From assembly GCF_005771495.1 (NCBI RefSeq), contig NZ_VAUW01000011.1:62001-126000 (forward strand): a stretch of 64,000 nt of DNA, written 5' to 3'. A model generated the notes under the pieces. It was not told the DNA's origin. It saw only the letters and a list, made by a program, of their open reading frames with translations, and did no database searches. Numbering within the stretch: the stretch's first letter is position 1; each line of letters begins with the position of its first letter. This document shows positions 2,917 through 15,954 of this stretch, in pieces. The stretch comes from Maribacter sp. ACAM166. Its GTDB lineage: Bacteria > Bacteroidota > Bacteroidia > Flavobacteriales > Flavobacteriaceae. The position numbers and the translations under genes are program-made.

Positions 2917-4005
2917 TTAATTTGTTTTTGGAAGGTTGAAATAAAAGGTTGTTTCTTCTTTAGGGGTGCTTTTTACATATACTTTTCCTTTAAAATGAGA
3001 GATAATTTTCTGAACAATACTTAATCCAATGCCTGTAGATTTAGTTGATTCAATTGTTTGAAACATACTAAATATTTTTTCTTGGTATTTTAGATCTATT
3101 CCAATTCCATTATCTTTGATTGAAAAAACATAGTCTTTTTCCGTTGTTTCGCATCCTAATTCAATTAAACCATTTTCTTTATCACTATGGTCCAAAGCAT
3201 TCTGTATTAGAATTTCAAAAACTTTTTCAAACATAATTTCATCCGCAAACAGGGTGGGTAGTTCATTATTTATTTTAATAGTGATATGAGGAGGCTTATT
3301 TATTTCTTTAATAACCCGCTCTGCAATCGTATTCATGTTTATAGCGTTAGTCTTAAAAGAAGCAGGCGTTATATTTTTGTGCTGTTCGAGTTTTACTAAT
3401 AATAACTCCATTCTTTCAACCTTTTCTCCCATAAGTTGAATCTTACTAATAGAATTTTCAAAACTGCTAGTTTCTTCCAGTTCTTCTTGAGTCCAAGTTA
3501 ATAGGTCTGAAATATTTCTTAGTGAAGATTTTAATTCATGTGAAATAATATGTGAATAATTATCTAGTTCGTTTTTCTGGTTTGAAAGAATAGTAGATAA
3601 TTCTGTTGTTTTAAAAATAATTTTTTGATCTATAATTAATTTCTTTTTAATTTTATTTTCAACAGCATTCACTAAATCATTCACATTTACTGGTTTCGTT
3701 AAATAATCTTCAGCTCCTACATTCATTCCAATTCTAACATCTTCTTTTTCGCCTTTCGCAGAAAGAAAAATCAAAGGAATAGCTTTTGTTATTTTATGAC
3801 GTTGTAGTTTGTCAAACATTTCAAAGCCGCTAAGGGAGGGCATCAGTATATCTGAAATAATAAGATCTGGATTCACCTCTAAAGCCATTTCAAAACCAAT
3901 TCTTCCATTTTTAGCCTGAAAAACGGTATAGCCTTCCATTACGAGAATATCGCAAATTTCTTCCCTTATGGCCAATGTGTCTTCTACAACTAATACTTTA
4001 TACAT
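2917..4005 (-). CDS. Hybrid receiver-histidine kinase (REC-HisKA-HATPase)
   Basis: This is a soluble two-component protein of 362 residues. Residues 1-120 are a receiver with the acidic pair E8/D9, phospho-acceptor D52 (LIISDILMP), S82 and K104 (LTKP). After a charged linker (118-150) comes a dimerisation/phospho-acceptor helix with H156 in SHELKSS. A C-terminal ATPase domain follows, with an N-box (QNALDHS), G1 (DNGIGID), an F-box (IFSMFQ) and G2 (GIGLSIV). There is no membrane segment and no DNA-binding output domain, so it probably relays phosphate within a cytoplasmic network. It is the last and only intact one of three tandem receiver copies downstream of the large PAS kinase. Its receiver is very close to those at 4445-4984 and 5448-5945, but its ATPase half differs from the decayed ATPase fragments next to it. 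Confidence 0.88.
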   Translation of the reverse strand: MYKVLVVEDTLAIREEICDILVMEGYTVFQAKNGRIGFEMALEVNPDLIISDILMPSLSGFEMFDKLQRHKITKAIPLIFLSAKGEKEDVRIGMNVGAEDYLTKPVNVNDLVNAVENKIKKKLIIDQKIIFKTTELSTILSNQKNELDNYSHIISHELKSSLRNISDLLTWTQEELEETSSFENSISKIQLMGEKVERMELLLVKLEQHKNITPASFKTNAINMNTIAERVIKEINKPPHITIKINNELPTLFADEIMFEKVFEILIQNALDHSDKENGLIELGCETTEKDYVFSIKDNGIGIDLKYQEKIFSMFQTIESTKSTGIGLSIVQKIISHFKGKVYVKSTPKEETTFYFNLPKTN

Positions 4006-4019
4006 AATTTGTATTTAAT

Positions 4020-4345
4020 TTTTTGGAACCATTACTCGTGAAGAGGTTTCATTCTCGAGATTGCGATACACACATATGTTACCTCCAACTACTTCTTTTA
4101 CAATTGATACACCAAGTCGTGCTCCCAAAATTAAAGCAACATGTACTTTTCGTGTACTAGGCTGAAATATAATTTTAAGGGCTGATTTTGAATCTCAATT
4201 TAGTATGCTGTAATCAAAACAATGATGGAGCTTTTTCTTGGCGGAAATTCAATAGTAATCTTTTTAGCAGCTATTTTTTTGTGTTACTAATTATTTTGAT
4301 AAAATGTTTTAACCTAATTTTTTATTAATGAGAATGTTAGCGCTT
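4020..4345 (-). pseudogene. Decayed histidine kinase ATPase domain, copy B
   Basis: No frame is open here, but the DNA still aligns with the 3' end of the large PAS kinase gene and with 4990-5241. Shared stretches include AGGCTGAAATAT followed by TTTTAAGGGCTGATT, and TTCAATAGTAA followed by TTTTTAGCA. The order of blocks is the same as in the intact ATPase domain: the G2/F-box region at low coordinates and the N-box side at high coordinates. It directly follows the receiver gene at 4445-4984 in the direction of transcription, after a gap of about 100 bases with nothing recognisable. It is more decayed than the copy at 4990-5440. Confidence 0.65.
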
Positions 4346-4444
4346 AGTAACTAAACGTTCTCAGGTAGTAACATGTAGTATGATTTAGGCACAAAGGATA
4401 TATCTCTTAAATTATTTTAGGAATACAATAGACAATAGATACAT

Positions 4445-4984
4445 TTAAAGAGTTGAATCTAATTTATCGGCATCATCCTGATTTATCATTAAAATATCAT
4501 CTAATAATTTTGTCATATGTATAATCTGATTTTCTAGTCTATTTATTTCATTTTTATGAGATCTAAGCAGTTGAGATAACTCGGCCGTTTTATCAATAAT
4601 TTTTTGATCTATTATTAATTTCTTTTTAATTTTATTTTCAACGGCATTCACCAAATCATTTACATTTATTGGTTTCGTTAAGTAATCTTCAGCTCCTAGA
4701 TTCATTCCAACTCTAATATCTTCTTTTTCACCTTTCGCAGAAAGAAAAATCAAAGGAATCGACCTTGTGTTTTTATTGTTTTGTAGTTTCTTGAACATTT
4801 CAAAACCGTCAAGGGAGGGCATCAGTATATCTGAAATAATAAGATCAGGAGTCTCCTTTACACTCATTTCATACCCAATTCTTCCATTTCTAGCCTGAAA
4901 AACGTTATACCCTTCCATTTCGAGAATATCGCAAACTTCTTCTCTTATCGCCAATGTATCTTCTACAATTAATATTTTAGACAT
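4445..4984 (-). CDS. Response regulator receiver protein with a kinase-derived tail (copy B)
   Basis: This 179-residue protein begins with a complete receiver domain (E8/D9, D52 in LIISDILMP, S82, K104), almost identical in layout to its two paralogues. A helical linker runs over residues 118-150. The C-terminal segment MTKLLDDILMINQDDADK is clearly related to the second dimerisation helix of the PAS kinase (MTKLLDDILVVGQADAGK). The phospho-acceptor histidine helix is missing. The coding frame stops just before a decayed ATPase domain (4020-4345). It is therefore either the surviving receiver part of a broken hybrid kinase, or a receiver joined to kinase sequence by tandem duplication. With all phosphorylation residues kept, it may still work as a phosphate sink or single-domain relay. 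Confidence 0.82.
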   Translation of the reverse strand: MSKILIVEDTLAIREEVCDILEMEGYNVFQARNGRIGYEMSVKETPDLIISDILMPSLDGFEMFKKLQNNKNTRSIPLIFLSAKGEKEDIRVGMNLGAEDYLTKPINVNDLVNAVENKIKKKLIIDQKIIDKTAELSQLLRSHKNEINRLENQIIHMTKLLDDILMINQDDADKLDSTL

Positions 4985-4989
4985 AGTAT

Positions 4990-5440
4990 TTATTTATATT
5001 TTGGAGTTAAGGATGTTCCATTCCTTATAGTACTATTAACACGTATTTTTCCTCCCATTGCTTCTATTGCTTTTTTTACAATTGATAAACTAAGACCAGT
5101 TCCCTGAATTAAATCACCATTTTCTCCTCTTCTAAAAGGCTGAAATATATTTTTAAGGGCTGATTCAAAAATTTTAATATCGGTAACTAAAAAAATCACA
5201 TACCTTTTTGCAACACAATTCAATAGTAACTTATTTAGCATCTCGAGAAAAGTATATAGCCTTACTACGTATAGTAGTAGAAATACTCTGCCCTAACTTT
5301 TGATTAATGAGAATATCAGTACTTTTTAATTTTTTCTATGTTCCTTATAGGGATTATAAATATCTTCAATTCGGTCTTTAATAACGTTTCCTGTATTTGC
5401 ATTTAAAGAGGTAGTATCTTATGTGCCATTGTCAGGCTGG
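4990..5440 (-). pseudogene. Decayed histidine kinase ATPase domain, copy A
   Basis: The last part still has an open frame of 83 codons (4990-5241), with an F-box (NIFQPFRRGEN), G2 changed from GTGLGLSIV to GTGLSLSIV, and KAIEAMGGKI. These are nearly the same as the end of the large PAS kinase at 5970-9695. Upstream, to about 5440, the DNA still aligns with that gene (a run close to AATGAGAATATCAG is kept at about 5300-5320) but is broken by stops and small indels. The G1 box (DYGIGI in the parent) is lost. The 83-codon frame starts inside the domain fold and is unlikely to be a working gene. It lies 6 bases upstream of the receiver gene 4445-4984. Confidence 0.7.
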
Positions 5441-5447
5441 CCAATAT

Positions 5448-5945
5448 TTAAATCTTTTTGTTTAATAATTGTGTTATTTCTAAAACTTGATTTTCTAGTT
5501 TTTCTATTTGACTTTTTTGGTTTTCAACAAGATTTGATAATGCTGCTGTTTTATTAATATACTTTTGATCTAAAATCATTTTCTTTTTAATTTTATTTTC
5601 AACGGCATTCACCAAATCATTAATATTTATTGGTTTGCTTAAATAATCTTCAGCCCCTAGATTCATTCCAAATCTAATGTCTTCTTTCTCGCCTTTTGCA
5701 GAAAGAAAAATCAAAGGAATAGCCCTTGTTTCATCATTACTCAGTAGTTTTTGAAACATTTCATAACCGTCAAGGGGGGGCATGAGTATATCTGAAATGA
5801 TAAGGTCTGGATTCTCTTTAACAGCAATTTCAAAACCAATTTCTCCATTTCCAGCCTGAAAAACGGTATATCCTTCCATTTCAAGAATATCGCAAACTTC
5901 TTCTCTTATGGCCAATGTGTCTTCTACAATTAAAATTTTATTCAT
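5448..5945 (-). CDS. Response regulator receiver protein (copy A)
   Basis: This is a receiver protein of 165 residues, 24 bases downstream of the PAS kinase and probably in the same transcript. It has the acidic pair E8/D9, phospho-acceptor D52 (LIISDILMP), S82 and K104 (LSKP), so it should be phosphorylatable. The most likely donor is the adjacent PAS kinase. After residue 118 comes a basic linker and a coiled-coil-like tail (LENQVLEITQLLNKKI) with faint similarity to the kinase dimerisation helix. It has no DNA-binding or enzymatic output domain. It may be the original partner from which the two downstream receiver copies arose. Output through protein-protein contact or phosphorelay is inferred. 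Confidence 0.85.
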   Translation of the reverse strand: MNKILIVEDTLAIREEVCDILEMEGYTVFQAGNGEIGFEIAVKENPDLIISDILMPPLDGYEMFQKLLSNDETRAIPLIFLSAKGEKEDIRFGMNLGAEDYLSKPININDLVNAVENKIKKKMILDQKYINKTAALSNLVENQKSQIEKLENQVLEITQLLNKKI

Positions 5946-5969
5946 GATGATTTTTTAATTTTTTAATTT

Positions 5970-8900
5970 TTAATTCTTTGCAATTTTTACAATAAAACAT
6001 GTGCCATTCCCAATAGTACTAGTAACAATTATTTTTCCTCCCATTGCTTCTATTGCTTCCTTTACAATTGATAAACCAAGACCAGTTCCCTGAATTAAAT
6101 CAACATTTTCTCCTCGGGTAAAAGGCTGAAATATATTTTCAAACTCAGATTGGGGAATTCCAATTCCGTAATCTGTTATTGAAATAAGTACGTAGTTTTT
6201 TTCAGACGAAAACTCAATAGTAACCTTTTTGGCATCTGGAGAAAACTTTATAGCGTTACCCATTAAGTTGATAAATATATTTCGTCCTAATTTTTCATCA
6301 ATGAGAATATCAGAGTTTTTTAATTCTTCATGATCAATTAGCACTATTTCGTGTGATTTTTCGTGTGAACTATAAACTTCTTCAATTATTTCATTAATAA
6401 AATCTCCGAGGTTTACATATAAAGGTTTGTACCTCGTTTTACCAGCGTCGGCCTGACCAACAACTAAAATATCATCTAATAATTTTGTCATATGCTTCAC
6501 CTGATCTTCAATTTTATTCAGTTTTTTATCTACCATACTTGGCTCCATTTTAGCCCAGTATTTTTTAATGGAGCCTGCAGCAAAATTAATTGCTGATAAC
6601 GGAGTTCTAAATTCATGAGATGCTGTTGAAACAAATTTCGATTTTAGTTCGCTTAATTCTTTTTCCTTTTTTAAAGCTTCATTTAGCTCTAAGGTTCTTT
6701 CATCGACCTTTAACTCTAACTCAACTTTAGTATTGGCTAATTCATTTACCCACTTTTCTTTCTGTTTATTTTGAGCGTTTAGCTCTGTCACATCTCTGGC
6801 CGCTGCAAATACGCCTAGAACATTTCCTTTGTTATCTCTATAAACAGAGGCATTGTACAAAACATCTGTTAGTTTCCCTTTCTTATCTCTGATGGTTAAT
6901 GGATAATCGGAGACAGAGCCTTCGTCAAAAACTTTTTTATAGCCTGTTCTAGCTTTTTTAGGTTCAGTAAAATAATTGGAAAAATCCGTACCTATTAATG
7001 CATCTCTTGTAACACCTGTAATTTTTTCAGAAGCATCGTTTACATCGGTAATAATACCTTCAGGAGAAATAGTAACCAGGGGGTCAAGGGAAGCTTCAAT
7101 TAAACTACGGGCATATTGCGACGCTTGTTTTTGGGCGGTCACATCTCTAGCCGCAGCGAATACACCTAAAACATTTCCTTTGTCATCTCTATAAACAGAG
7201 GCATTATACAAAACATCGGTTAGTTTCCCTTTTTTATCTAGAATGGTTAATGGATAATCGGAGACGGAGCCTTCGTCAAAAACTTTTTTATAGCCTGTTC
7301 TAGCTTTTTCAGGTTCGGTAAAATAATTCGAAAAATCCGTACCTATTAATGCATCTCTTGGGACACCTGTAATTTTTTCAGAAGCGTCGTTTACATCGGT
7401 AATAACACCTTCAGGAGAAATAGTAACCAGGGGGTCAAGGGAAGCTTCAATTAAACTACGGGCATATTGCGACGCTTGTTTTTGAGCGGTCACATCTCTA
7501 GCCGCAGCGAATACACCTAAAACATTTCCTTTATCATCTCTGTAAACAGAGGCATTATATAGCACATCTGTTAGTTTCCCTTTCCTATCTCTGATGGTTA
7601 ATGGATAATCGGAGACAGAGCCTTCGTCAAAAACTTTTTTATAGCCTGTTCTAGCTTTTTCAGGTGCGGTAAAATAGTTGGAAAAATCCGTACCTATTAA
7701 TGCATCTCTTGTAACACCTGTAATTTTTTCAGAAGCATCGTTTACATCGGTAATAATGCCTTCAGGAGAAATAGTAACCAGAGGATCAAGGGAAGCTTCA
7801 ATTAAACTACGGGCATATTGCGACGCTTGTTTTTGTGCGGTCACATCTCTGGCCGCAGCGAATACACCTAAAACATTTCCTTTGTCATCTCTATAAACAG
7901 AGGCATTGTACAAAACATCTGTTAGTTTCCCTTTCTTATCTCTGATGGTTAATGGATAATCGGAGACGGAGCCTTCGTCAAAAACTTTTTTATAGCCTGT
8001 TCTAGCTTTTTTAGGTTCGGTAAAATAATTAGAAAAATCCGTCCCTATTAATGCATCTCTTGGGACACCTGTAATTTTTTCAGAAGCATCGTTTACATCG
8101 GTAATAATACCTTCAGGAGAAATAGTAACCAGGGGGTCAAGGGAAGCTTCAATTAAACTACGGGCATATTGCGACGCTTGTTTTTGAGCGGTCACATCTC
8201 TAGCCGCAGCAAATACGCCTAGAACATTTCCTTTGTCATCTCTATAAACAGAGGCATTGTACAAAACATCGGTTAATTTTCCTTTTTTATCTAGAATGGT
8301 TAATGGATAATCGGAGACAGAGCCTTCGTCAAAAACTTTTTTATAGCCTGTTCTAGCTTTTTCAGGTTCGGTAAAATAATTAGAAAAATCAGTACCTATT
8401 AATGCATCTCTTGGGACACCTGTAACTTTAACTGAGGCATTGTTTACATCGGTAATTTTCCCTTCAGGAGAAATAGTAACCAGGGGGTCAAGCGAAGCTT
8501 CAATTAAACTACGGGCATATTGCGATGCTTGTCTTTGCTCTGTTATATCTTGTCCTACTCCTAATACACCTGTAATTTCACCCTTAGCATCACGACGAGT
8601 ACTTGAATTTAATAAGACCAATACAGGCTGTCCATCTTTTGTAAATAACGGCAACTGGTAGTTGGCGGTTTCTTTACCAAGCAAAGCATCGTCTAATACT
8701 TTTTTTACGGATTCTCGGTGTTCTTCCGTGACATACGTTTGTACCAGATTTTTTCCTAATACATCGTCTTTTGTAAATCCAGTAATTTTTTCAGAAGCCC
8801 GATTCCATGTATTAACAAGTCCTTTACTATCTATACCAAAAATAGGAGCGTTGACCGTTTCAATAAGTAGCGTTAAATCATGAGCTATACTTTCCATTTC

Positions 8901-9695
8901 AGAACGATAACTAAGTTCTTTCTGGAAAGTGATTTCTGCGTTGGAAAGGACTAATTCATTTGCTTGTTTTTCTTTCTCTTTATTTTGAAAGGCAAGTTCT
9001 TTGTTGACAATAATTAACTCATCTGCTCGTTTTTCTTCCTCTTGATTTTGAAAGGCAAGCTCTTCATTGGCACTAATTAATTCATCTGCTCTTTTTTCTT
9101 CCTCTTCATTTTGAAGAGTAAGTTCTTTGTTGGCAAGAACTAACTCATCTGCTCGTTTTTCTTCCTCTTCATTTTGAAGGGCTCGTTCTGTAACATCTCG
9201 CCCTACTCCTAATACACCAGTGATTACGCCATTAGTATTACGACGTGTATTTAAGTTTAATAAAAGCACTAAACGCTTTCCTTCTTTGGTAAATACAGGC
9301 AGCTCATAGTTGGCAGTCTCTTTTCCAAGTAAAGCATCGTCCAATATTTTTAGTGCTGCTTCTTGGTAGTCTTCGGCAATATATTGTGTTAGACCTTTGC
9401 CTAACATTTCTGCTCTTTTAAATCCAGAAAGTTTTTCACTAGCCTGATTCCACTCATTTACAAGCCTTTTGCTATCGATACCAAAAACAGGAACGTTGGC
9501 CGTTTTAATAAACTGTCTTAATTCGGTTGCAATGGATTCTGATGCAGTTCTCAGTTTATCTATTTCTTCTAAAGATTGAATTGATTTGGAAAGCTCTATA
9601 CTTTTTTCTGTAGCTATACGCTCTGCCTCTTGCCTTGCTTCTTTCTCTATTTTTAGGGCTTTTTCAAGTAATTGTATCTTCAAACCAGTATTCAT
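5970..9695 (-). CDS. Large soluble multi-PAS sensor histidine kinase
   Basis: This kinase has 1241 residues and no signal peptide or membrane helix, so it should sense cytoplasmic signals. A coiled coil (residues 5-58) leads to PAS1 (about 61-170). A coiled coil of four 21-residue repeats (173-256) leads to PAS2 (about 272-385). Then come five near-identical 117-residue PAS repeats (389-973), each running from QASQYARSLIEASLDPL to RDVTAQK. A coiled coil connects to the HisKA helix with H1027 (SHEFRTPLS), and the ATPase domain follows with an N-box (NLMGNAIKFS), G1 (DYGIGI), an F-box (IFQPFTRGEN) and G2 (GTGLGLSIV). All kinase motifs are intact. It is first in a minus-strand run with receiver genes and has a good promoter at 9749-9779. 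The ligand or cofactor is not visible. Seven PAS domains, five of them almost copies, is unusual. Confidence 0.92.
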   Translation of the reverse strand: MNTGLKIQLLEKALKIEKEARQEAERIATEKSIELSKSIQSLEEIDKLRTASESIATELRQFIKTANVPVFGIDSKRLVNEWNQASEKLSGFKRAEMLGKGLTQYIAEDYQEAALKILDDALLGKETANYELPVFTKEGKRLVLLLNLNTRRNTNGVITGVLGVGRDVTERALQNEEEEKRADELVLANKELTLQNEEEEKRADELISANEELAFQNQEEEKRADELIIVNKELAFQNKEKEKQANELVLSNAEITFQKELSYRSEMESIAHDLTLLIETVNAPIFGIDSKGLVNTWNRASEKITGFTKDDVLGKNLVQTYVTEEHRESVKKVLDDALLGKETANYQLPLFTKDGQPVLVLLNSSTRRDAKGEITGVLGVGQDITEQRQASQYARSLIEASLDPLVTISPEGKITDVNNASVKVTGVPRDALIGTDFSNYFTEPEKARTGYKKVFDEGSVSDYPLTILDKKGKLTDVLYNASVYRDDKGNVLGVFAAARDVTAQKQASQYARSLIEASLDPLVTISPEGIITDVNDASEKITGVPRDALIGTDFSNYFTEPKKARTGYKKVFDEGSVSDYPLTIRDKKGKLTDVLYNASVYRDDKGNVLGVFAAARDVTAQKQASQYARSLIEASLDPLVTISPEGIITDVNDASEKITGVTRDALIGTDFSNYFTAPEKARTGYKKVFDEGSVSDYPLTIRDRKGKLTDVLYNASVYRDDKGNVLGVFAAARDVTAQKQASQYARSLIEASLDPLVTISPEGVITDVNDASEKITGVPRDALIGTDFSNYFTEPEKARTGYKKVFDEGSVSDYPLTILDKKGKLTDVLYNASVYRDDKGNVLGVFAAARDVTAQKQASQYARSLIEASLDPLVTISPEGIITDVNDASEKITGVTRDALIGTDFSNYFTEPKKARTGYKKVFDEGSVSDYPLTIRDKKGKLTDVLYNASVYRDNKGNVLGVFAAARDVTELNAQNKQKEKWVNELANTKVELELKVDERTLELNEALKKEKELSELKSKFVSTASHEFRTPLSAINFAAGSIKKYWAKMEPSMVDKKLNKIEDQVKHMTKLLDDILVVGQADAGKTRYKPLYVNLGDFINEIIEEVYSSHEKSHEIVLIDHEELKNSDILIDEKLGRNIFINLMGNAIKFSPDAKKVTIEFSSEKNYVLISITDYGIGIPQSEFENIFQPFTRGENVDLIQGTGLGLSIVKEAIEAMGGKIIVTSTIGNGTCFIVKIAKN
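6777..8531 (-). repeat. Five tandem 351-bp PAS-encoding repeats
   Basis: Five in-frame units of 351 bp (117 codons) lie end to end inside the PAS kinase gene, with unit starts at 8531, 8180, 7829, 7478 and 7127. At protein level the units differ at only a few positions: KIT/IIT/VIT, VPRD/VTRD, TEPE/TEPK/TAPE, ILDKK/IRDKK/IRDRK, and an asparagine for an aspartate in unit 5. Differences at DNA level are also sparse and are shuffled between units. That suggests recent duplication or gene conversion and a likely copy-number-variable site. Confidence 0.95.
8928..9179 (-). repeat. Four 63-bp coiled-coil repeats
   Basis: Four tandem 21-codon units encode the pattern LQNEEEEKRADELVLANKEL with small changes (residues 173-256 of the PAS kinase). 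Three heptads per unit predict a continuous coiled coil between PAS1 and PAS2, able to pass a rotation or register shift between the sensory domains of a dimer. Confidence 0.85.
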
Positions 9696-13790: not shown

Positions 13791-15290
13791 ATGAATAGAG
13801 TAAAACAAATAGCGGTAGTCGCTTTATTAGTTGTGAGCTTTGTAAGTACAGCCCAACAAAAGAATGAATTACATAATCGAGATTTTTGGAAAGGGAATCC
13901 AGATATAGCAGCTGTAAAACAAAAAATTTCAGAAGGTAATAATCCAACGGCATTTAATGACAATGCTTTTGATGCAACAACCTTTGCCTTGTTGGGAAAA
14001 GTAGATGTTGAGGTGTTAAAGTATTTAGTATCCTTAGAAGGGAATTCTATTGACAAGAAAACGCACGATAGCCGAATTTATTTACATTGGGCAGGTTATG
14101 CTGGCAATGTTGATTTGGTTAAGTATCTGCTTGACGAAGGTTCTTCAGTAACGGCCTTAGATAGTCACCGATATACACCGCTTGCGTTTGCAGCAAACGC
14201 AGGTTCAACAAATCCTGTTGTATATGAAACATTTGAAAAGAAAGGGGTAAATCTAGCTAATGAGAAAAATAATCATGGCGCAAACTTATTGCTGATGGTG
14301 GCTTCTTCGCTTGAAAATGAGAAAGAATTAGATTTCTTTTTGTCTAAAGGGATGGAACTAGATAGTAAAGATGACGATGGAAATGGAATATTTAATTATG
14401 CTTCCAAAAAAGGCAACATAGATTTCTTAAAACTACTCGTTAATAAAGGGGTTGATTATAAGTCTCTAAACAATAAAGGTGGTAATGCTTTTCTTTTTGC
14501 AACGCAAGGTGGTCGTGGGTCTAGTAATCCATTAGCAGTTTATGACTATTTAAAAAGTCTAGGTTTAGAACCAAATATCGTTACCAAAGAAGGTAGTACA
14601 CCTTTGCATAGACTAGCGAGCAATAATAAGGATACAGCTATTTTTGAACTCTTTCTTTCTGCTGGTGCAGATGTGAATCAAAAGGACGAAGAAGGAAATA
14701 CACCATTTCTTAATGCCGCTTCTCGAAATGAATTGGCTCAAGTGAAACTACTTTCTAAGGATGTAAAAGATTTCAACGTAGCGAATACAAATGGTCAGAC
14801 GGCTTTAATGCTTGCCGTGGAGAATAATCAAGCTGATGTGGTTGAATTTTTACTACAAAATGAAGCTGATATTTTAGTAAAGGATGCTAAAGGCAATACA
14901 CTTGCGTATTATTTGGCAGAATCATTTGATACTAGAAAGACGGAAGCTTTTGATGCCAAATTGAAGTTACTTCAAGAAAAAGGGGTTGCATTCAATACCG
15001 CACAGTCTGAAGGAAATATATTGTACCATATTGCTGCCAAAAACAATGATTTTGCGTTGTTAAAAAGGATTTCTGATATTGATATTGATATCAATACTAA
15101 AAATGACGACGGACTAACGGCATTGCATTTGGCAGCCATGAAAGCCGAGAATGATGAGATGTTGAAATACCTTATTTCAAAAGGAGCTGATACAAAAGTA
15201 ACGACCGATTTTGAAGAAACGGTTTATGATTTGGCAAGTGAAAATGAATTATTAAAAAATGGGCAAATCTCATTGAGCTTTTTAAAGTAG
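13791..15290 (+). CDS. Secreted ankyrin-repeat protein
   Basis: This protein has 499 residues and a cleavable signal peptide (VALLVVSFVSTAQQ, residues 9-22), so the repeats should lie in the periplasm, which is less usual than cytoplasmic ankyrins. About ten ankyrin-type units run from residue 50 to the C-terminus, for example IYLHWAGYAGNVDLVKYLL, GSTPLHRLAS, GQTALMLAVENNQADVVEFL and GLTALHLAAMKAENDEMLKY. It starts 4 bases after the DUF6607-like gene and must be co-transcribed with it. Its likely job is binding a protein partner of the iron-uptake machinery. No catalytic motif is visible. A gap of 113 bases to the next gene may hold an internal regulatory or processing signal. Confidence 0.85.
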   Translation: MNRVKQIAVVALLVVSFVSTAQQKNELHNRDFWKGNPDIAAVKQKISEGNNPTAFNDNAFDATTFALLGKVDVEVLKYLVSLEGNSIDKKTHDSRIYLHWAGYAGNVDLVKYLLDEGSSVTALDSHRYTPLAFAANAGSTNPVVYETFEKKGVNLANEKNNHGANLLLMVASSLENEKELDFFLSKGMELDSKDDDGNGIFNYASKKGNIDFLKLLVNKGVDYKSLNNKGGNAFLFATQGGRGSSNPLAVYDYLKSLGLEPNIVTKEGSTPLHRLASNNKDTAIFELFLSAGADVNQKDEEGNTPFLNAASRNELAQVKLLSKDVKDFNVANTNGQTALMLAVENNQADVVEFLLQNEADILVKDAKGNTLAYYLAESFDTRKTEAFDAKLKLLQEKGVAFNTAQSEGNILYHIAAKNNDFALLKRISDIDIDINTKNDDGLTALHLAAMKAENDEMLKYLISKGADTKVTTDFEETVYDLASENELLKNGQISLSFLK

Positions 15291-15403
15291 TCTGAAAGTC
15301 AATAACTTGCCAGCCGAAAGGCGAGTGGGTATTTAATTTAATAATGGCAATACCAGCCGATATAATCAGATATATTTTAACTGGTTAGCGAATTTTTATA
15401 TAG

Positions 15404-15889
15404 ATGAAAAAATTAATCAAATTTATTCCAGTAATTTTATTAGCAGGGTCATTATTGACTGCATTTACCACAGTAGATAAGCAACCCGTTAAATGTCTTA
15501 TTCAATTAACGAATTATAGTGGCGAAGGTGCTTATATAGTGGTTTCGATTGTTAATGCCGAAGAGAACTATGAAGAGACTTTGTATGTCATAGGGAAAGA
15601 TAGCGAGTGGTATAGTGAGATAACCGAATGGTGGAAGTTTTACGGAAAGAACCGTCCGAATATAGATGCTATTTCTGGCGAAACCATAAGCGGGGGCGAA
15701 CGTACTTTGTCTGTATTACAAATACCAATCGATAAAATCGATAAAGGATACAGTCTGCGATTTGAAACTTCTGTTGAAGATCAAGGGTACTTCGCAGATG
15801 ATATTCAATTTGAGTTGACTTCGGATAATTTAAAAACAAAAGTAGAAGGAAAAGGATTCATTCGTTACGTGCGTATGCTTCCACAATAG
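15404..15889 (+). CDS. DUF2271-like periplasmic protein
   Basis: This exported protein has 161 residues with an N-terminal signal (FIPVILLAGSLLTAFTTV). The body is a predicted beta-sandwich with the DUF2271-like region INAEENYEETLYV to SGETISGGERTLSVLQIP and FETSVEDQGYFADDIQFEL near the C-terminus. DUF2271 proteins are usually encoded beside PepSY-TM reductases, and this one precedes such a gene. A role in presenting or binding the substrate of that reductase is plausible but unproven. The N-terminal KCLIQLTNYSG contains the only cysteine of the mature part. Confidence 0.75.
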   Translation: MKKLIKFIPVILLAGSLLTAFTTVDKQPVKCLIQLTNYSGEGAYIVVSIVNAEENYEETLYVIGKDSEWYSEITEWWKFYGKNRPNIDAISGETISGGERTLSVLQIPIDKIDKGYSLRFETSVEDQGYFADDIQFELTSDNLKTKVEGKGFIRYVRMLPQ

Positions 15890-15910
15890 AAAGAACAATT
15901 AAAGTAGTGA

Positions 15911-15954
15911 TACATGTTTCGGAATAGCTATGAAATGATATTTCGGAACATGTA
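15911..15954 (+). other. Intergenic RNA hairpin
   Basis: Arms 15911-15925 and 15940-15954 form a 15-bp stem (two G-U wobbles as RNA) with outer sequences TACATGTT and AACATGTA and a 14-base loop. No T-run follows, so it is not a simple terminator. It stands between the DUF2271 and PepSY-flavoprotein genes and could be an attenuator, a processing site or an operator. Confidence 0.4.

Follow-up and report, generated by a model that had tools for sequence, protein, structure and literature searches.

A 64-kb stretch of DNA from Maribacter sp. ACAM166, referred to below as the window, carries on its minus strand a sensor-kinase locus in which a PAS histidine kinase gene (PAS kinase) is followed by a stand-alone receiver gene (R1), a spacer, a second stand-alone receiver gene (R2), a second spacer and a receiver-histidine kinase gene (REC-HK), in this order according to the open reading frame (ORF) coordinates (Table 1). 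The locus is a real, well-resolved tandem duplication with differential decay. It is very probable that a unit consisting of a kinase end and a receiver was tandemly duplicated and that the ATPase parts of the copies decayed, one decayed piece lying between R1 and R2 (remnant 1) and the other between R2 and REC-HK (remnant 2). That such a unit was duplicated and then lost its kinase portion was the core of the original prediction for this DNA, and it is strongly supported by DNA homology, by decay of a neutral type and by an unduplicated genome of the same genus. The homology, the decay, the unduplicated order in relatives and the conservation of the receivers are observed parts of this scheme.

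Spacers as Decayed Kinase Ends

Both spacers match the 3′ end of the PAS kinase gene, the spacer at 4985-5447 with 78% over 331 bp (E = 1e-72) and the spacer at 4006-4444 with 72% over 253 bp (E = 3.5e-34). In a control with 200 dinucleotide-preserving shuffles the alignment scores of both spacers exceeded those of all shuffles (z = 106 and z = 64, respectively), by which chance similarity was ruled out. The predicted resemblance of the ATPase fragments to the kinase end was thus borne out, and decayed ATPase is indeed present in both spacers, but the limits first given for the fragments have to be moved: the kinase homology starts inside the receiver tails, at about 5496 and 4541, upstream of 5440 and 4345.

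The differences from the PAS kinase at the first, second and third codon positions were 0.31/0.22/0.33 for remnant 1 and 0.33/0.26/0.34 for remnant 2, a nearly flat divergence of the neutral type. The corresponding values for five intact relatives ranged from 0.10/0.06/0.33 (Polaribacter sp. IC073) to 0.24/0.10/0.33 (Maribacter antarcticus), with the highest third-position difference, 0.38, in genome G519. From this nearly flat pattern together with the lesions listed in Table 1 it follows that the ATPase parts are pseudogene remnants; both show what is expected of duplicated pseudogenes, namely homology to a functional parent beyond chance, disabling lesions and a neutral substitution pattern. 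An ORF of 83 amino acids (aa) with a HATPase_c match persists at 4990-5241.

The Locus in Related Genomes

Twelve distinct related loci were compared, including those of M. antarcticus DSM 21422 (genome G006, locus L031), Polaribacter sp. IC073 (G530, L144; below IC073), P. glomeratus (L145) and P. irgensii (L039). A scan of genome contigs gave at least 80 loci, of which six (L035-L040) were used and the other 74 were set aside from the listing alone.

A comparison with sister species had been proposed earlier. In M. antarcticus the PAS kinase gene (778 aa, L031 12478-14814) overlaps the REC-HK gene (14807-15922) by 8 bp with nothing between them, and the 371-aa REC-HK is 69% identical to the window protein. 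The window stretches 5500-6722, 4574-5173 and 2930-4548 align colinearly to overlapping parts of this single copy. The kinase stands directly before REC-HK, with no stand-alone receiver, in eight of the 12 loci (in L148 the kinase is split over two frames), and stand-alone receivers were found in two, IC073 and P. glomeratus. In P. irgensii the receiver lies inside another, longer hybrid kinase, and in L040 REC-HK is shortened to a receiver and a scrap; at L040 2454-3037 a receiver ORF is accompanied by a broken ATPase piece, so that here the receiver was kept and the kinase lost. The order in IC073 is kinase, R1, R2 and REC-HK with short spacers, and a 46-bp scrap of kinase ATPase precedes REC-HK (78%, E = 4e-6).

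Whole kinases have been multiplied as well, P. glomeratus having three complete PAS kinases and G574 (L147) two. In L035 the PAS kinase is immediately preceded by the terminal piece of another kinase of its type (1-554, at the contig start and partly N). Upstream of the M. antarcticus locus (L031 10983-12341) a receiver domain is fused to another protein, which we take to be glycosyltransferase-like.

The distribution of the locus is patchy. Within the genus it was found in two of 36 genomes at E ≤ 1e-60, one of them the window genome, and in the genus of P. irgensii in 11 of 166 genomes at E ≤ 1e-50 (8 of the 11 with E below 1e-120). Among 397 genomes of the family searched, a sample to which M. 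antarcticus did not belong, the window genome alone gave a REC-HK match at E ≤ 1e-60. By rpoB identity the nearer relative of the window genome is M. antarcticus (0.831, against 0.776 for IC073). The kinase end, by its identity and its nonsynonymous divergence (dN), is closer to that of IC073 (0.849, dN 0.069) than to that of M. antarcticus (0.803, dN 0.161). Its synonymous divergence (dS) runs the other way, 0.546 with M. antarcticus and 0.738 with IC073, though both values are well under the saturated rpoB dS of 1.6-1.8. The locus has likely moved between lineages, nucleotide identity and dN favouring transfer and dS not.

Duplicated Unit and Probable Breakpoint

By the ORF coordinates, successive gene starts are 961 bp (R1 to R2) and 979 bp (R2 to REC-HK) apart, and the duplicated unit would thus be of about 0.97 kb, comprising half of helix 2 of the dimerisation and histidine phosphotransfer (DHp) domain, the ATPase part, the receiver and a linker. 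In the tails of the receivers the linker sequence of REC-HK passes directly into residues similar to those of DHp helix 2 in the PAS kinase; by eye, 12 of 16 residues are identical between the R2 tail LENQIIHMTKLLDDIL and the kinase IEDQVKHMTKLLDDIL. The dimerisation stub MTKLLDDIL, originally ascribed to the receivers in general, is in R2 identical to the kinase sequence and sits inside a 30-nt exact match; R1 departs from it with the diverged form ITQLLNKK. Again judged by eye, the position of the joint is shared by five receivers, namely R1 and R2 in both the window and IC073 and the stand-alone receiver of P. glomeratus. The shared joint and the passage from linker to helix 2 fit a duplication reaching from inside kinase helix 2 to the REC-HK linker. 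Such a duplication would account for the dimerisation stub of the receivers, which lacks the phospho-acceptor His, and for the fact that the final receiver alone has a kinase of its own, and a different one.

From these features we infer the breakpoint and an order of events, with gene conversion. At the ancestral locus the PAS kinase would have been followed directly by REC-HK. A tandem duplication beginning inside DHp helix 2 of the PAS kinase and ending in the linker behind the receiver would first have put one unit of half helix 2, ATPase and receiver between these genes. A further round would have made two units, each extra receiver being fused from birth to a kinase half lacking the phospho-acceptor His. 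The fused ATPase parts, unable to act as a kinase, would then have decayed, to a state still readable in the window and almost erased in IC073, and the receivers with a short tail, probably from DHp helix 2, would have been retained by purifying selection. Recombination between the repeats would have gone on, with gene conversion and renewal of the PAS array.

Age of the Copies and Probable Recombination

In the protein tree R1-like and R2-like groups, each of window, IC073 and database sequences, were recovered with supports of 89.9/82 and 89.5/92, and in the nucleotide tree R1 of the window paired with R1 of IC073 (92.5/97). A second tree was based on a shorter alignment that also took in 16 untailed receivers (P0136 and 15 of the database matches P0140-P0191). 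The R2-like group stayed (79.8/91), the firm R1-like group came down to P0125, P0126 and P0129 (83.6/93), and a split (85.6/79) placed all 16 untailed receivers and P0135 with those of REC-HK, apart from the remaining 12 tailed ones. Because relatives of R1 and R2 from IC073 and the database group in this way, the extra receivers look older than the window genome and than its split from the IC073-type locus; a recent duplication confined to the window genome is ruled out by the IC073 relatives. The description of the locus as expanding is not supported for the extra receivers, which seem to predate that split; the PAS array does look renewed since. The PAS copies of the window are 0.895-0.965 identical to one another and 0.810-0.871 to the three IC073 copies, and the five copies of the window and the three of IC073 have been renewed separately (support of the split, 97).

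Remnants 1 and 2 are sisters in the DNA tree (81.7/92) with equal branch lengths of 0.469 and 0.460. Older decay of the distal copy, as had been suggested, agrees with its greater number of lesions (Table 1), yet is not shown, the branches being equal. The fresher appearance of remnant 1 may be due to partial gene conversion. At sites differing between the window and IC073 kinases, remnant 1 matches the window kinase at 46 and the IC073 kinase at 23 (p = 0.008), the bias being strongest at the 3′ end (18 vs. 5, p = 0.01). Exact matches extend over 29 and 30 nt to the window kinase and over only 21 and 20 nt to the IC073 kinase. The dS between receivers within the window is 0.26-0.44, lower than in the R1, R2 and REC-HK receiver pairs with IC073 (0.47-0.66; both ranges by NG86). 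Gene conversion within the locus appears to be the simplest reading of these comparisons.

Selection on the Receivers and Their Possible Function

The dN/dS ratios were estimated by NG86, the only method for several pairs; R1 was also analysed by YN00. Between the window and IC073 they were 0.10 (YN00, 0.05) for R1, 0.125 for R2 and 0.19 for the REC-HK receiver, which shows that purifying selection acts on the receivers. The set of tailed stand-alone receivers comprised the first 12 database matches in order, two of them from the window itself, and P0135; P0133, which runs into a REC-HK, P0134, which has an unrelated end, and the remaining listed matches were left out. Residues E8, D9, D52, S82 and K104 are kept in all 13. 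Residue 57 is P in all four R1-like and S in all seven R2-like sequences, and residue 103 is S and T, respectively, with two receivers unassigned (P0127, with P and C; P0135, with E and T). This conservation argues for some function of R1 and R2.

Kinase parts appear less durable. In a survey of the best 120 of 1247 REC-HK proteins, the window's own included, the catalytic His was present in 119, Asn in 117 and Asp in 120, and four proteins were flagged. The REC-HK of IC073 has lost the His, Asn, Asp and Gly positions and that of G455 (L150/L037) the Asn, Asp and Gly positions, the receivers of both keeping the four residues checked; by these alignments the two are probable pseudokinases. Receiver-only proteins without a tail (120-133 aa) make up 47 of the 52 matches P0140-P0191, and some of them look like shortened REC-HK proteins, as in L040; broken assemblies may contribute. 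Such an asymmetry suggests that receivers outlast kinases in this locus family.

As to function, the PAS kinase would phosphorylate R1, R2 and the REC-HK receiver, and R1 and R2 would compete for phosphoryl groups and so set the strength with which REC-HK is driven. We put forward this tuning of REC-HK by competing stand-alone receivers tentatively, as the likeliest way of working but at less than even odds. By analogy with the R. centenum cascade discussed below, the REC-HK receiver is probably a target of the PAS kinase; the phosphate-sink role of R1 and R2 suggested earlier is likewise possible. In L035 a REC-PAS-HK gene and a regulator gene, presumably of the LuxR type, lie downstream; in the window genome the matches to this REC-PAS-HK were confined to its receiver part.

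Alternative Explanations

Several observations weigh against the duplication scheme or its dating. An intact fusion of receiver, helix 2 and ATPase, the expected intermediate, was not found in any genome; the database proteins P0194 and P0198, considered for it, lack the receiver start and are otherwise ordinary REC-HK proteins with SHELK or SHQLK. The R1/R2 spacer of IC073 gave no significant ATPase remnant (best E 0.03). In the nucleotide tree the R2 pair of window and IC073 has support of 0/52 but groups with the third window receiver (82.4/87), and dS is 0.26 between window R2 and this third receiver vs. 0.66 for the R2 pair, so that receiver grouping is moderate and blurred by conversion. 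P0130 no longer stands firmly with R1 in the second tree (33/59 with P0127), and P0135 falls among the REC-HK receivers in the trees. The position of the remnants among the kinases is weak (neighbouring nodes 0.9/13 and 19.8/53). For remnant 2 the site count (46 window, 32 IC073) is non-significant at p = 0.14, and conversion therefore rests on remnant 1 and the exact 29- and 30-nt matches. Between the receiver paralogues of the window dN/dS rises to 0.20-0.43. Lastly, in P. glomeratus a complete, undamaged kinase separates the stand-alone receiver from REC-HK, and other routes therefore exist in this locus family. The P. glomeratus order of two complete PAS kinases, receiver, third complete kinase and REC-HK, like the two tandem kinases before REC-HK in G574, would suit remnants left by complete extra kinases (kinase, receiver, kinase, receiver) that had lost their 5′ parts. 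This we regard as very unlikely for the window, where the homology starts in helix 2 within the receiver frame and leaves no space for PAS or DHp helix 1. The common joint in five receivers of three genomes, seen by eye, also speaks against it, as does the grouping of the remnants apart from the third P. glomeratus kinase, though that tree position is weakly supported.

With duplication of a kinase-end/receiver unit retained, the role of its receivers can be read in other ways. The location of R1 and R2 amid pseudogene remnants, and the lack in the window genome of a full match to the downstream REC-PAS-HK of some relatives, could mean that they are dispensable leftovers themselves heading for decay. 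The dN/dS of 0.05-0.125 against the IC073 orthologues, the consistent R1-like and R2-like differences at residues 57 and 103 and the phosphorylation residues kept in every tailed receiver make this highly improbable. Alternatively, the stand-alone receivers might act mainly by binding, the helical tail pairing with the DHp of the PAS kinase or REC-HK and controlling the kinase. The tail looks derived from DHp helix 2, 12 of the 13 tailed receivers end at 164-166 aa (window R2, with 179 aa, being the exception), and a structure model of R2 made with 13 sequences has the receiver fold running into one continuous helix at residues 108-178, with block predicted local distance difference test (pLDDT) scores of 82-94 over residues 121-170 and poor scores at 84-90 and 92-104. 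On the other side, the phosphorylation residues are all conserved, the proteins P0140-P0191 are mostly untailed, though the 16 untailed receivers treed fell among REC-HK receivers, and confident long-helix predictions are common; a mainly binding role thus seems unlikely to us, if well worth considering. More speculatively, a duplication with its breakpoint inside the helix could give rise to a novel type of regulator, in which a receiver ends in half of the dimerisation helix of its own kinase. The tail of such a receiver would pair with DHp, making it at once a kinase-binding modulator and a phosphate acceptor, with the ATPase shed and receiver and tail selected; this we consider doubtful.

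Comparison with Known Systems

Single-domain response regulators can serve as alternative phosphoacceptors. R1 and R2 belong to this class, with Response_reg and no output domain (Pfam, E 0.001, as for all domain assignments here), and resemble its members in having a lone receiver domain with all phosphorylation residues next to a kinase. They differ in having a tail that apparently stems from DHp helix 2 in the adjacent kinase, and in being flanked by decayed ATPase to which they were probably once fused.

In the CheA3/CheS3/CheY3 cascade of Rhodospirillum centenum, as presented in the portion of PMC3868531 considered here, one kinase inhibits a second, receiver-bearing kinase by phosphorylating the receiver of the latter; receivers can also act as phosphate sinks, draining phosphoryl groups. 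The likeness lies in the pairing of a kinase with a second receiver-kinase and in receivers as possible sinks (PMC3868531). In that same portion, however, the sink receiver is tethered to CheA3 in a chemotaxis-like system, whereas the window has a PAS kinase, untethered receivers and a transfer that is predicted (PMC3868531). In myxobacteria two-component genes have been altered by duplication, indel and frameshift, and duplication, domain loss and pseudogenes in kinase and regulator genes, including tandem duplication with fusion, recall the present case (PMC4603909, in part). A repeated kinase-end/receiver unit and graded stages of remnants across species are not described in the portion of that account considered (PMC4603909).

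Duplication with partial decay is thus already known; what is unusual here is this particular unit, together with the graded stages and a receiver tail that apparently comes from the kinase. The gain of extra receivers in two-component systems is usually deduced from finished products, and this locus family displays the stages: unduplicated, duplicated with readable remnants, and duplicated with remnants nearly erased. The suggested survival of receivers beyond their kinases offers a clear test of the idea that spare receivers persist because they buffer or tune a kinase.

Features of the Window Locus

The coordinates originally predicted for the PAS kinase and the three receiver genes proved exact, and the acidic pair, phospho-Asp, Ser and Lys are kept in all three receivers, as had been noted. 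The last receiver does carry a different, intact kinase: REC-HK has a receiver, HATPase_c, a phospho-acceptor His and the N and G boxes of the ATP-binding part and qualifies as a receiver-histidine kinase. Its phospho-acceptor His rests on alignment with relatives, since Pfam HisKA was unreported for REC-HK.

Table 1. Features of the sensor-kinase locus in the window.
Feature	Coordinates	Strand	Basis or remark
PAS kinase, PAS histidine kinase of 1241 aa, catalytic part intact; parent of the decayed ATPase copies	5970-9695	-	ORF; Pfam PAS, HisKA, HATPase_c
Phospho-acceptor His codon of PAS kinase (SHEFRTP)	6615-6617	-	
Five tandem 351-bp PAS copies in PAS kinase	6787-8537	-	Repeat scan
63-bp coiled-coil repeat, 3.8 copies	8952-9189	-	8.2 copies in M. 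antarcticus orthologue
R1, stand-alone receiver 1, 165 aa; phospho-Asp codon 5790-5792	5448-5945	-	ORF; Pfam Response_reg alone
C-terminal tail of R1, LENQVLEITQLL, resembling DHp helix 2	within 5448-5945	-	
Remnant 1, decayed copy of PAS kinase 3′ end (4 indels, 2 premature in-register stops)	4990-5447	-	
R2, stand-alone receiver 2, 179 aa; phospho-Asp codon 4829-4831; tail LENQIIHMTKLLDDIL	4445-4984	-	ORF; Pfam Response_reg alone
Remnant 2, decayed ATPase (6 indels, 4 premature in-register stops)	4006-4444	-	
REC-HK, 362 aa; phospho-Asp codon 3850-3852, H-box His codon 3538-3540; presumed original partner of PAS kinase, occurring in unduplicated sister loci	2917-4005	-	Pfam Response_reg, HATPase_c

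No match to the 351-bp PAS repeat unit was reported for M. antarcticus. In a tandem-repeat scan of the whole window, covering periods up to 500, four of the five rows, two of them representing the same array, lie within 5952-9189.

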